Below, in pieces: positions 21,887-25,781 of a DNA stretch of 64,000 nucleotides. A program made the translations under genes and the position numbers. The notes beneath the pieces were generated by a model that worked only from the letters and a program-made list of their open reading frames with translations, had not been told where the DNA came from and did not search any database. Location: positions 62,001 to 126,000 of the forward strand of contig MCGO01000101.1 in the NCBI GenBank assembly GCA_002104985.1, read 5' to 3'. The stretch comes from Rhizoclosmatium globosum. Lineage: Eukaryota; Chytridiomycota; Chytridiomycetes; Chytridiales; Chytriomycetaceae. Each line of letters starts with the position of its first letter. Within the stretch, counting starts at the first letter, position 1.

Positions 21887-22953
21887 ATGACCATCTTGGG
21901 ACACACTGACAAGATCACCGTTCTCCTCAACTGGGCTGCTAATCCTTACCACGCCCCGCTCTACCTTGCCCAACAGCTCGGCTACTTTGCCGACGAGGGC
22001 ATCAAAGTCGCGATCCTCGAGCCATCCGATCCTTCCGATGTAACTGAGATCATTGGCAGTGGTAAGATCCAACTCGTTCTTTAATATCAGATTCGGTCAA
22101 GTTTCTAATATTTCACCCCACATTCCAGGTAAGGTCGACCTCGGTTGCAAGGCCATGATCCACACCATCGCCGGTGCTGCCAGAGGGTTCCCCGTGACTT
22201 CCATCGGAACTCTTCTCGACGAGCCTTTCACTGGCGTCGTGTACCTCAAGAGTAGCGGAACGATCACGGAGGACTTCCATTCCCTCAAGGGCCGCAAGAT
22301 TGGGTATGTTGGTGAATTCGGGAAGGTGATTATCGATAACTTGACTAAGCGTTATGGTATGACTGTGAGTGTTTTTTGATTTTGATTGATGTTGATTGGT
22401 TAGACTTATCCGGATGGACTCTTGATAACATTAGCCTGAGGATTATACTGCCGTCCGTGTAGGTATGAATGTTTCTGATGCCATTATTCGCGGTGTCATT
22501 GATGCCGGAGTTGGGCTTGAGAACATTCAACAAGTCGAGTTGGAGGAATGGTCCAAAGCCCAAGGCCGTACCGCTGATGACGTTGGAATGCTTCGTATCG
22601 ATGAACTCGCCGACTTGGGTTGCTGCTGCTTCTGTTCCATCTTGTACATTGGGAACGACAAGTTCATCGCTGAGAATCCTGAAAAGGTTCGCGCGTTCAT
22701 GAAGGCTGTCAAGCGTGCCACAGACTTTTTGTTGGAGAACCCAGAGAAGGCATACAACCAATACGTTGAAATCAAGCCGTACTTGGGTTCAGACTTGAAC
22801 CGCAAGATGTTTCAACGCTCTTTGCCTTACTTTTCCAAGTCTTTGGAGAATGTTCAACGCGACTGGACCAAGGTTGTCAACTTTAGTAAGACTCTTGGTG
22901 TTGTTGATGAGTCCTTTGTCCAGAACATGACCAATGAGTTTTTGGACGTCTAA
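21887..22953 (+). CDS. THI5: HMP-P synthase (THI5/NMT1 family), thiamine pyrimidine biosynthesis
   Basis: Three exons, with introns at 22062-22128 and 22365-22434, give 309 aa. THI5 makes the pyrimidine half of thiamine (HMP phosphate) from its own active-site histidine and pyridoxal phosphate, a suicide reaction known from yeast and Candida. Visible here: [36 protein letters not shown], the KAMIHT motif with the PLP-binding lysine and donor histidine, [16 protein letters not shown] [27 protein letters not shown], and the iron-binding cysteine motif CCCFC. All key residues are present. The C-terminus stops about 30 residues earlier than the yeast protein, after TNEFLDV. Regulation: a TPP aptamer lies in the 3' UTR (see 23001-23076). 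The promoter is shared with the minus-strand oxidoreductase. Confidence 0.96.
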
Positions 22954-23000
22954 TTGGGCTCTCTGTGCTCTTCTCTCTTTCTTTGTTCCTTCTTTAAATT

Positions 23001-23076
23001 GCGAAACGGGTGCTTAATTGAGCTGAGAGGATAACCGTCATAACCCGAACATGGTAATGCATGCGTGGGGATTTGC
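23001..23076 (+). promoter_or_regulatory. TPP riboswitch aptamer in the THI5 3' UTR
   Basis: All conserved TPP-aptamer parts can be placed. P1 is GCGAA (23001-23005) with TTTGC (23072-23076, one GU pair). P2 is ACGG/CCGT. P3 is a short hairpin GCTT-AATT-GAGC, followed at once by the invariant CTGAGA (23023-23028). P4 is CCC/GGG, J4/5 is GAA, and P5/L5 is CATG-G-TAAT-G-CATG followed by CG. The usual P5 is CTGG/CCAG; both strands have changed to CATG/CATG and still pair, a compensatory change. It begins 47 nt after the stop codon, and an AATAAA poly(A) signal lies just after P1 at 23083-23088. TPP binding should lower THI5 output; the mechanism is inferred. Confidence 0.9.
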
Positions 23077-23082
23077 CAACAA

Positions 23083-23088
23083 AATAAA
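23083..23088 (+). terminator. Candidate poly(A) signal of THI5
   Basis: AATAAA seven nucleotides after the end of aptamer stem P1. It lies inside the possible 3'UTR intron 23054-23150. Confidence 0.5.
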
Positions 23089-23202
23089 CCTTTTCTACTT
23101 TGATTGAATTTGATAGGAAACCTGAGATAATTATATTAAATTAATTACAGATCAATTGAGGATCAATGCCTGGTGGAATGATGCTCGGACGTTAATGATT
23201 CT

Positions 23203-24492
23203 TTATTCCAGACCTGATGACCTTAATTTATCCCACATCTCTTTCTGGTCCAGCTCTTCAATCATACGAGATAAAAAGACAACCATGTCCATATCACTCA
23301 TATTTTCGGCTATTCCAACAGCGTTCTCCAAAGTTTCCATCGTTTTTACTCGAGAATCCTTCAACAATAAACCAACAGCTTCCTTGTTTTGACTTCGAAC
23401 TGCCGTCAAAAGAGCCTCATTATTGTTCTGAGACGGATCCACGCGCAAATCACCAACAAGTAACCTGACGCAATCCATGCTTTCACCATGTAGCGCTTCA
23501 ATAATTGCTTCACTACCGACTTGAGCGGGATCAACTCGCTCATGCTTCAACAAAAGTTCCAAAAGGTCCGTCCATCCATGTCGGGCAACAGCTGGAATCG
23601 CCATATTATTGCGAATAGATGGGTCGACGCGTGGATCGGTCAATAAAAATGCAGCAAACTCCTTGTTCCGATTCAACGCCATCAGAAATGCTCGATTATT
23701 GTTTGCTGCTGGATTAACGCGACCATCTTCAAGTAGAACCCGAAGAACATCAACCGACGCCTCATTCCAACACGCAACAGACACACAGAAGCTGTCGCCT
23801 ACACATGGATCGACTTTGTCGGACGCAAGTAATATCTTGATAATCTCCACATTGCTTTGCTGGCACGCAACCAGGAACGGCTCATAACCTCCATGCGACA
23901 GATCAACTTTGTCACAATTCACAAGGAGCCGCACAATATCAGTGGAGTTGTTGATAATTGCGGTTATGATACAATAATCATTATCAGCCCGTGGATCCAC
24001 CTTCTCAATAGAAAGAAGGAACTCGACAGTGGAGGTATACCCCAACATAACAGCAACTCGAAGTGCCCGGTCTTTCTGTGAAGTTACATCCATCACACCA
24101 ACCAGAGTCTTGATAATCCGCAGTGATACCTCTTCGGGAACTCTCCACCGTTCATGATACATCAAGTTAGCATCGCTGAGCCCAATTTGTGCGTTTAGAT
24201 GCCACGTCGGCTCTGCGAGAATCAAGCTGTACACTGCGCATTTGTAGTTGAAGGGCAGCGACTTCCACTCGTTGTACTTGATGCCGTTATCATCGAGATA
24301 CTCCCACAGTGTCAGTGAAGGACGGGGTATGAGTGATTGGACGTGGAGGCGGGCAAAGGTGAGGTCGTTGAGGATAGTTTCGCTGAAGAGAAGTTTGGAT
24401 GACAGCGCCACTGATCGCAGGTGTTTGTCGATGGGAAGATGCGATATAATACTGCGAATAAGCTCGTGAGGAAGGATTGTGACATGATTCAT
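23203..24492 (-). CDS. F-box-like ankyrin-repeat protein
   Basis: Single-exon gene of 429 aa. The first 45 residues look like an F-box (ILPHELIRSIISHLPIDKHL). A family-specific middle region follows (LWEYLDDNGIKYNEWKSLPF), then about eight degenerate ankyrin repeats of the form LL-DxRVDPS-NNxA. Such proteins probably recruit substrates to SCF ubiquitin ligases (inference from architecture). The frame extends upstream to 24558, but that would overlap the start of the divergent LRR gene, so the ATG at 24492 before NHVTILPHEL is preferred; the paralogue at 53987 starts at the same place. It converges on THI5; 250 bp separate the two stop codons and hold the THI5 3' UTR. Confidence 0.88.
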   Translation of the reverse strand: MNHVTILPHELIRSIISHLPIDKHLRSVALSSKLLFSETILNDLTFARLHVQSLIPRPSLTLWEYLDDNGIKYNEWKSLPFNYKCAVYSLILAEPTWHLNAQIGLSDANLMYHERWRVPEEVSLRIIKTLVGVMDVTSQKDRALRVAVMLGYTSTVEFLLSIEKVDPRADNDYCIITAIINNSTDIVRLLVNCDKVDLSHGGYEPFLVACQQSNVEIIKILLASDKVDPCVGDSFCVSVACWNEASVDVLRVLLEDGRVNPAANNNRAFLMALNRNKEFAAFLLTDPRVDPSIRNNMAIPAVARHGWTDLLELLLKHERVDPAQVGSEAIIEALHGESMDCVRLLVGDLRVDPSQNNNEALLTAVRSQNKEAVGLLLKDSRVKTMETLENAVGIAENMSDMDMVVFLSRMIEELDQKEMWDKLRSSGLE

Positions 24493-24557: not shown

Positions 24558-25781
24558 ATGGTCACCTTCTCAGACCTTCCTGTTGAGATAGTGACATACA
24601 TCCTACTCATGGTTAGACTGCCTGGTCTGTTTCGTTACCGCGGACTATCAAGACGCATCAACGAGATCATCTCATCAGAGCAATTTGCCATTGCCTCCCT
24701 CGAAAGAGTATTCAGCCCAGTTATTAAACGACCTAAAGTGACGAATTACGAACCATTGTCCCAATTATTCTTTTCAGTGATTGCGACTCCACCACCTGCG
24801 TTCCAAGAAGCCATTGCCACGTTGTACTGGAAAGATACTACCCACATTCAATTGGATCTGCAGAAACATTACGAAACTCGCCTTGCTCGATACAATGAAG
24901 ACTTGAAGGGATGGTGGGAGAACAAGACTAGTCACCCAATCAAACCTGTACTTTCGGCGGCGATCTGCCTTATCTCAAAACTCACAGATCTGAATTTGAA
25001 CGGCATAGACGGATATATTCCACACCAAATTGGAGAACTAAAGAGCTTAACTTATTTGTTTCTTTCCGGATCATCTCAGAGAGGTGGACTACCAGATGAA
25101 ATGGCGCAATTGATTCATCTTAGGGAGTTGAGTCTGCCTGAATTCATTTCTGGTCCCTTTCCAGAAGTTGTCTGTAAATTGACAAACCTCAGAAAGCTTG
25201 CATTGTATCGCAATGATTTAGAAGGGCCTATTCCTGCTGCGATTGGAAACTTGACGGAACTAGAAGGGCTCTATTTGCAACACAATCAACTGACTGGACC
25301 CATCCCGCAAGAAATCAAAAAATTATTTAACCTAGATAATCTTCATCTTGACTTTAACTGTATTACGGGTGAGATTCCAAAGGGAGTCGGAAACTTGACA
25401 AAGTTGATCCAATGTGGGCTTTCCTATAACGAGCTGTCGGGTCCTATCCCTGCAGAATTTGGACGATTGTCAAGGCTCTATAATTTACATATGAGGGGCA
25501 ACAATTTGGTTGGTCCAGTCCCAGATTCTATTTCTTTGCACAAACAGTTGGGGTTTTTGAGTATTTGTGAGGACCAGCTCAATCATCCTTTCTCTCACGC
25601 ATTCGTGGATCACATATACAGAAGGAAATTGTGCAATTCTGTAAATGGAAAACCGTTCTACTTGGAAGAGAGGAAAGTGGAAGGCAGTGATACTACTCTT
25701 TTTTACGCGACAAGGCAGCCTCGTGATAAGGAACATCCCCATGGTTACGTGTACAGACTTGAAAATGAAAGAGAAGTTTAA
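24558..25781 (+). CDS. F-box-like protein with plant-type leucine-rich repeats
   Basis: Single exon, 407 aa. N-terminal F-box-like helix (SDLPVEIVTYILLMVRLPGL). A helical linker follows, then about seven LRRs of the plant-specific kind, for example LEGPIPAAIGNLTELEGLYL, LTGPIPQEIKKL and LSGPIPAEFGRL. There is no signal peptide or transmembrane helix, so unlike plant receptor kinases this is a cytosolic protein. The C-terminal cap region is Lys/Arg-rich. The ATG follows the 65-bp promoter shared with the minus-strand ankyrin gene. It probably acts as an adaptor in ubiquitination or another protein-interaction role (inference). A decayed LRR fragment of the same type lies at 57260-57402. Confidence 0.88.
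   Translation: MVTFSDLPVEIVTYILLMVRLPGLFRYRGLSRRINEIISSEQFAIASLERVFSPVIKRPKVTNYEPLSQLFFSVIATPPPAFQEAIATLYWKDTTHIQLDLQKHYETRLARYNEDLKGWWENKTSHPIKPVLSAAICLISKLTDLNLNGIDGYIPHQIGELKSLTYLFLSGSSQRGGLPDEMAQLIHLRELSLPEFISGPFPEVVCKLTNLRKLALYRNDLEGPIPAAIGNLTELEGLYLQHNQLTGPIPQEIKKLFNLDNLHLDFNCITGEIPKGVGNLTKLIQCGLSYNELSGPIPAEFGRLSRLYNLHMRGNNLVGPVPDSISLHKQLGFLSICEDQLNHPFSHAFVDHIYRRKLCNSVNGKPFYLEERKVEGSDTTLFYATRQPRDKEHPHGYVYRLENEREV

Follow-up and report, generated by a model that had tools for sequence, protein, structure and literature searches.

Thiamine pyrophosphate aptamers beside AATAAA in the 3' untranslated regions of chytrid thiamine genes: a candidate polyadenylation riboswitch

A TPP aptamer behind a chytrid THI5 gene

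The stretch of 64,000 nucleotides from the chytrid Rhizoclosmatium globosum analyzed here (contig MCGO01000101.1, positions 62,001 to 126,000; the window) carries a gene for a THI5/NMT1-like HMP-P synthase and, on the same strand past its stop codon, an aptamer of the thiamine pyrophosphate (TPP) riboswitch class, RF00059, followed closely by the hexamer AATAAA (Table 1). The aptamer is the sole Rfam match at the gathering threshold in the window (Rfam cmscan); its score exceeds the RF00059 gathering score of 54.3 bits, with E-values of 1.2e-10 when 10 kb were scanned and 7.9e-10 when the whole window was scanned. The CUGAGA, L5 UAAU and J4/5 GCG motifs and the helices P1 to P5 are all present in the Rfam alignment. 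An initial annotation, made from the letters alone, had described a full TPP aptamer starting 47 nt past the THI5 stop and had proposed a search of the region with RF00059; this search returned the aptamer above the gathering score, with the helices and motifs that had been named. Likewise, the claim that a fungal THI5 gene bears a TPP aptamer in its 3' untranslated region (UTR) was borne out by the pairing of this aptamer with a gene matching PF09084. The Pfam match falls in exons 2 and 3, and the protein joined from the three exons is 99% identical, over its full length, to a protein of Rhizoclosmatium sp. JEL0117. Judged from the sequence, the identity of the aptamer and its position after the THI5 stop are near certain. 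A chance match is argued against by the presence in the genome of at least 18 such aptamers, all located behind thiamine-synthesis genes or transporters.

Table 1. Coordinates of the features of the THI5 locus and its neighborhood in the window
Feature	Position	Strand	Remarks
THI5/NMT1-like gene (HMP-P synthase)	21887-22953	+	3 exons, 309 aa, PF09084
THI5 exons	21887-22061, 22129-22364, 22435-22953	+	Bounds placed by eye
THI5 stop codon, TAA	22951-22953	+	
Pyrimidine tract, THI5 stop to aptamer	22968-22996	+	
TPP aptamer, RF00059	22996-23088	+	62.3 bits, model 1-105 of 105 (full length)
P1, 5' strand, GCGAA	23001-23005	+	Rfam alignment; begins 47 nt past THI5 stop
CTGAGA, pyrimidine-sensing motif	23023-23028	+	Rfam alignment
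P5/L5 hairpin, CATG-GTAATG-CATG	23050-23063	+	P5 strands 23050-23053/23060-23063; Rfam alignment
GT within L5	23054-23055	+	Candidate splice donor of the initial annotation
P1, 3' strand, TTTGC	23072-23076	+	Rfam alignment
AATAAA, proposed poly(A) signal	23083-23088	+	Six bases between P1 and hexamer
Ankyrin-repeat gene, convergent to THI5	23203-24492	-	Open reading frame of 429 aa, Ank_2; bounds the space for the THI5 transcript
Leucine-rich repeat protein, neighbor of the ankyrin gene	24558-25781	+	

We also considered whether the aptamer could be the 5' leader of a neighboring gene. This was rejected: the next gene, encoding the ankyrin-repeat protein, lies on the opposite strand, and the aptamer is thus not the leader of an adjoining plus-strand gene. 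Behind the THI5, THI4 and THI6a genes, the longest open frame within 1.5 kb downstream of the aptamer is on the opposite strand as well. THI20 and THI6b have a close same-strand frame downstream, and their aptamers resemble the rest.

At least 18 aptamers in seven gene families

The genome assembly (56.9 Mb, 420 contigs) was searched in two ways. RF00059 retrieved 11 of the 18 aptamers at E<=0.001, and at E<=10, 49 of the 1822 candidates were scored. Since an RF00059 scan around the hits had uncovered one more aptamer at both L016 and L017, the genome was also searched with an L5/P4 pattern built from five families, which gave 18 exact matches and 3 matches with one mismatch, compared with 2 for the reversed pattern used as a control. 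The pattern and RF00059 (E<=10) converge on the identical 18 places; the pattern was derived from known families and is not fully independent of Rfam, yet it revealed two new families. The three one-mismatch matches (L042-L044) had no RF00059 match up to E 5 and were set aside. The counts are lower bounds. When read whole, with their long P3 loops kept, the 18 aptamers score between 39.7 and 62.3 bits, 5 of them above the gathering score; the seven with long P3 loops, which the genome search overlooked or gave low scores of 26-28 bits, reach 39.7-51.5 bits in this way. Such loops, of about 64-95 nt and rich in pyrimidines or T, are found in the aptamers of the MFS, SSF and ThiD-TenA genes (L033 1375-1536, L029 1351-1537, L026 1484-1638).

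All 18 aptamers lie 3' of a stop codon, with 45-87 nt between the stop and P2, and neither of the two genome searches found an aptamer in a 5' leader or a coding intron. Hence, none of the 18 has the location of the splicing-type switches of fungi, namely, a 5' UTR or coding intron (types I-III of PMC5882874). The genes belong to seven families (Table 2), labeled THI6 and THI20 after what we take to be the corresponding yeast gene names. Every THI5 (3/3), full-length THI4 (3/3), ThiM-domain (5/5) and strong ThiD (3/3) locus has an aptamer. Weaker matches to PF01946 and two 62-bit matches to PF08543 elsewhere, for which no aptamer is listed, look like other enzymes. Across 68% of its length, the SSF transporter matches a piece from R. 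hyalinum at 98% identity; its searches against Pfam, NCBIfam and PDB sequences gave one weak NCBIfam and one weak PDB match, both taken as chance, and it was assigned to its family because its homologues carry PF00474. These homologues are found in chytrids, Obelidium, Siphonaria, Podochytrium, Chytriomyces and Batrachochytrium among them, with weaker matches in green algae (transporter at L029 124-1270 and L045 2612-3101).

Table 2. Families of aptamer-bearing genes and the position of AATAAA (all distances in nt)
Family	Copies with aptamer	Domains	AATAAA start past the aptamer core	AATAAA start relative to the first base after P1	Further AATAAA within 500 nt (one copy per family)
THI5	3	PF09084	11	+6	At 294
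THI4	3	PF01946	11	+4	At 85 and 93
THI6a (ThiM gene)	2	PF02110	4	-1	None
THI6b	3	ThiE and ThiM domains	0	-5	None
THI20 (ThiD-TenA gene)	3	PF08543 and PF03070, both read in one copy	8	-3	None
MFS transporter	2	PF00083	11	+6	None
SSF transporter	2	PF00474 in homologues	21	+9/+10	None

The thiamine loci are present in two or three copies (e.g., L001/L009/L010 and L016/L017/L018), which share 96-100% identity in the 600 bases that precede the stop, are located on different contigs and have partly different flanks. They represent uncollapsed haplotypes, a hybrid or a recent duplication. THI20 and THI6b stand head to tail (L016, L018 and, on the reverse strand, L017), each with its own 3' aptamer. 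By eye, THI6b probably starts within ~100 nt of the first aptamer, that of THI20, which might also act on THI6b.

The AATAAA hexamer at the edge of P1

To judge the role of AATAAA in this genome, we used 60 other gene ends as background (open frames of >=200 codons, with the five riboswitch ends removed and the near-copies L010, L013, L014 and L018 left out). Within 0-175 nt past these stops, AATAAA was observed 25 times (in 17 ends) compared with 6.6 expected from dinucleotide content; from 175 to 300 nt, the numbers were 3 and 3.4. Some of the ends may stop in an intron or be non-genes, which would dilute AATAAA. Given this enrichment, AATAAA is most likely a 3'-end signal in R. globosum.

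In all 18 aptamers, AATAAA begins 0-21 nt past the core, counted from the GGA that closes it (Table 2). The hexamer lies partly within P1 in THI6a, THI6b and THI20 and starts 4-10 nt past P1 in THI5, THI4, MFS and SSF. When the 120 nt past the core were shuffled by dinucleotides, AATAAA occurred within 21 nt in 0.8-8% of cases depending on the family, the product across families being 1.5e-12, and 2-3% of the 22-nt windows at the 60 other gene ends hold the hexamer (shuffle, folding and P1-pairing calculations throughout are for one copy per family). The evidence for a regulon-wide link between the aptamer and AATAAA is strong, and it is the hexamer at or near the edge of P1, not a splice site, that is constant in 18 of the 18 genes.

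This arrangement is conserved between gene copies. In a comparison of the single most diverged pair of each family, the core through AATAAA had 3 changes in 585 sites, the segment from the stop to P1 had 16 in 407, the last 300 bases before the stop (which may include an intron in THI20) had 41 in 2095, and the first 150 nt past AATAAA had 69 in 1042. By Fisher's test, the core through AATAAA differs from the downstream segment with p = 1e-10, from the upstream segment with p = 1.7e-4 and from the coding sequence with p = 0.015. The THI5 pair is illustrative, with no changes in the 84 sites of the core through AATAAA and 18 in the next 149 sites. P1 covaries among six families (THI6b excluded), with three, three and four types of pairs at positions 3, 4 and 5, respectively, counted from the inside. 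A further common element is a pyrimidine tract between the stop and the core: in 16 of the 18 riboswitch genes the best 20-nt window contains 18-20 pyrimidines (16 in the two MFS copies), so that the tract is present in six of the seven families, compared with 3 of the 60 other gene ends that reach 18.

A candidate polyadenylation riboswitch and the alternatives

Collectively, these observations suggest that the thiamine genes of R. globosum are shut off by the vitamin hiding a 3'-end signal. We consider it probable, on the strength of the DNA sequence, that TPP closes P1 and thereby masks the poly(A) signal directly, without splicing; the poly(A) signal itself would then serve as the expression platform of the 3'-UTR riboswitch. 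With little TPP, P1 would be open and the cleavage and polyadenylation machinery would read AAUAAA, yielding a short, stable mRNA. When TPP is plentiful, P1 would close, in THI6a, THI6b and THI20 together with part of AAUAAA and in THI5, THI4, MFS and SSF stopping 4-10 nt short of it; the near poly(A) site would be skipped, and the extended transcript would be degraded or poorly translated, such that thiamine synthesis and uptake would drop with no need for splicing. The anatomy and the conservation of the aptamers back such masking, and the ligand-dependent step is what we infer. The wider proposition, that a eukaryotic thiamine regulon relies throughout on TPP switches of a single kind, natural polyadenylation riboswitches in which the ligand-closed P1 hides AAUAAA without splicing, appears plausible on balance.

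Support from RNA folding is mixed; the energies used omit tertiary contacts, proteins and co-transcriptional folding. Imposing the aptamer halves the mean accessibility of AAUAAA in THI6a (0.66 to 0.33) and nearly halves it in THI20 (0.91 to 0.48), and in the copies of six families that were considered, the predicted closure of P1 in the absence of ligand is at most 0.05 in THI5, THI6a, THI20 and MFS. A number of points weigh against masking. With the aptamer imposed, accessibility barely falls in THI5 (0.74 to 0.70), THI4 (0.89 to 0.88) and MFS (0.24 to 0.16), as well as in THI6b (0.62 to 0.58; here P1 itself was not imposed), and it is 0.59 in SSF with or without the aptamer. In SSF and, to a lesser degree, THI4, P1 is predicted to be largely closed even when free of ligand (up to 1.0 and 0.69, respectively), which leaves tertiary closure and steric hindrance as the sole possible means there. 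The register of P1 in THI6b is unsure because the Rfam alignment marks mismatches and the predicted folds differ: in the minimum-energy fold of a short segment, the pyrimidine tract pairs with A-rich sequence that begins at the final two bases of AAUAAA, and a longer segment has a different optimum. The conservation contrast is carried by five families (THI5, THI6b, THI20, MFS and SSF), with THI4 and THI6a being nearly identical downstream as well (0 and 1 change in 150), and the contrast with coding sequence is weak. The 18 aptamers amount to about seven independent cases, or fewer if both ThiM types count as one. Finally, in diatoms, alternative polyadenylation was the first hypothesis of the authors, and the 3'RACE test for THIC was negative (PMC9544697).

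The initial annotation had envisaged a plant-like switch, with TPP deciding between polyadenylation at the near site and splicing from the GT in L5 to an acceptor ending at 23150. In plants, TPP-induced splicing in the 3' UTR takes out a polyadenylation site (PMC10043782), and by analogy TPP could free a donor, the GT at 23054 or another, with removal of an intron containing the poly(A) signal and formation of an extended, unstable 3' end. The letters are indeed there, namely the GT, a CAG ending at 23150 and AATAAA between them, and GGTAAT is found in L5 of 14 of the 18 aptamers, where it conforms to the aptamer consensus. Yet the acceptor ttacag is present only in the THI5 copy of the window, being absent at the same place in the other two, the GT is missing from L5 in 4 of the 18 aptamers, and the donor pattern has no match in either THI6a copy between the stop and 150 nt past AATAAA; moreover, an L5 donor would have to be used while the surrounding loop serves sensing. 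The intron 23054-23150 was accordingly rejected as a general mechanism. All three THI5 copies retain another AG (23115-23116, in ttgatag); used as the acceptor, it would define an intron of 63 nt with AATAAA inside, so an intron specific to THI5 is possible. No donor is common to all families in the genomic sequence, and a pair of 3'-UTR donor and acceptor of the plant THIC type, kept across them, was not found; what the families share is the position of AATAAA. Overall, we regard splicing as unlikely, and what stands of the earlier proposal is that the switch is placed to act at the near poly(A) site and that its outcome is expected to resemble that in plants.

Nor does it seem likely, if slightly less doubtful, that the aptamer comes into play once the 3' end has formed, affecting decay, export or translation of the mRNA, with AATAAA being near simply because the aptamer stands at the end of a short 3' UTR. 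The four families in which AATAAA lies 4-10 nt past P1, with little or no predicted change in its accessibility, would fit such a role. Against it speak the offsets of 0-21 nt in 7 of 7 families, compared with the 0.8-8% from the shuffles and the 2-3% at the other gene ends, and the letters that P1 shares with AATAAA in three of the families. It is improbable that the element binds, or once bound, TPP and has ceased to switch. This was the conclusion for diatom THIC, where P1 of the 3'-UTR aptamer overlaps a predicted poly(A) site and no response was seen in transcript levels, 3'RACE or reporters (PMC9544697); the chytrid aptamers, however, have been kept at all THI5, full THI4, ThiM and strong ThiD loci, with core motifs intact and fewer changes between copies than in the flanks and, weakly, in the coding sequence. 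Even less credible is a switch of reverse sign, in which the folded aptamer would move the upstream pyrimidine tract beside AAUAAA and aid processing. The tract of 18-20 pyrimidines in 20 before most of the aptamers is in line with this possibility, but TPP would then increase the expression of the genes for its own synthesis and uptake. The eukaryotic TPP switches known from genes of this kind reduce expression.

The masking of AAUAAA by P1, if confirmed, would set the chytrid regulon apart from the natural systems described so far and bring it close to an engineered one. A review states in general terms that eukaryotic riboswitches control whether splice sites or polyadenylation signals are accessible (PMC10043782). 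As in the plant THIC switch, a 3'-UTR aptamer is located near a 3'-end processing site (here placed by AATAAA), use of which TPP is expected to abolish; unlike in that switch, the chytrid families share no splice sites, the poly(A) hexamer touches or adjoins P1, and the gene in the window is THI5 rather than THIC. The described fungal switches, such as those of Neurospora crassa NMT1, THI4 and NCU01977 and of Aspergillus oryzae thiA, are found mostly in introns of the 5' UTR or the coding region, where they govern splicing (PMC5882874, PMC5997356), and a type IV is found in the 5' UTR of single-exon genes, without splice sites or a known mechanism (PMC5882874). A survey from 2024 that covered 156 fungi of medical relevance placed most TPP switches in 5' UTRs (PMC11683625). 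The aptamer class and the genes THI5 and THI4 are the same in R. globosum, whereas all 18 of its aptamers are 3' of the coding region and some belong to ThiM/THI6 and ThiD-TenA genes. Mukherjee et al. stated that, among fungal biosynthesis genes, only NMT1 and THI4 carry TPP switches, and the word 'chytrid' is absent from the main text of that paper (PMC5882874). The riboswitch-bearing thiamine genes of fungi now include ThiM/THI6 and ThiD-TenA. A fungal 3'-UTR TPP aptamer has been predicted before, in eIF5B of Postia placenta, which is not a thiamine gene; a second method of the same authors did not validate it, and the sections consulted mention no poly(A) signal (PMC5882874). We found no chytrid TPP riboswitch in the open-licence PMC literature.

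Parallels also come from diatoms and other algae. All TPP aptamers of diatoms (THIC and SSSP) are in 3' UTRs and have an A-rich P1, which in PtTHIC overlaps a predicted poly(A) site, AACAAA (PMC9544697); unlike in diatoms, the chytrid aptamers are accompanied by the canonical AATAAA at 18 of 18 places, in seven gene families of one genome. The algae Micromonas and Aureococcus also have 3'-UTR TPP aptamers, some of them on intronless SSUA/THI5-like genes; the mechanism was called undocumented, and the word stem 'polyadenyl' does not occur in that text (PMC4260697). In engineered switches, AAUAAA is placed in or at P1 of guanine or tetracycline aptamers, the ligand hides it and expression drops (PMC10353319). 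The chytrid aptamers have AAUAAA within or adjoining P1 in the same manner, as natural sequences and with TPP as the ligand, whereas the engineered switches are synthetic and work in mammalian cells. On this reading, nature would have arrived at the design of synthetic biologists, perhaps in parallel to the aptamers that Micromonas and diatoms carry in their 3' UTRs; the chytrids would run the same sensor on the same genes via an expression platform unlike that reported for other fungi. Direct action of a switch on the poly(A) signal would represent a new type of expression platform and would open to experiment the question left by the 3'-UTR aptamers of algae and diatoms, with seven natural designs in a single organism bearing on how near P1 must be to AAUAAA. 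As a separate observation, the aptamer-linked SSF transporter of R. globosum, which may likewise be a thiamine transporter of the SSS family, recalls both diatom SSSP, a transporter of this kind, and fungal DUR31, and it may correspond to NCU01977/DUR31.
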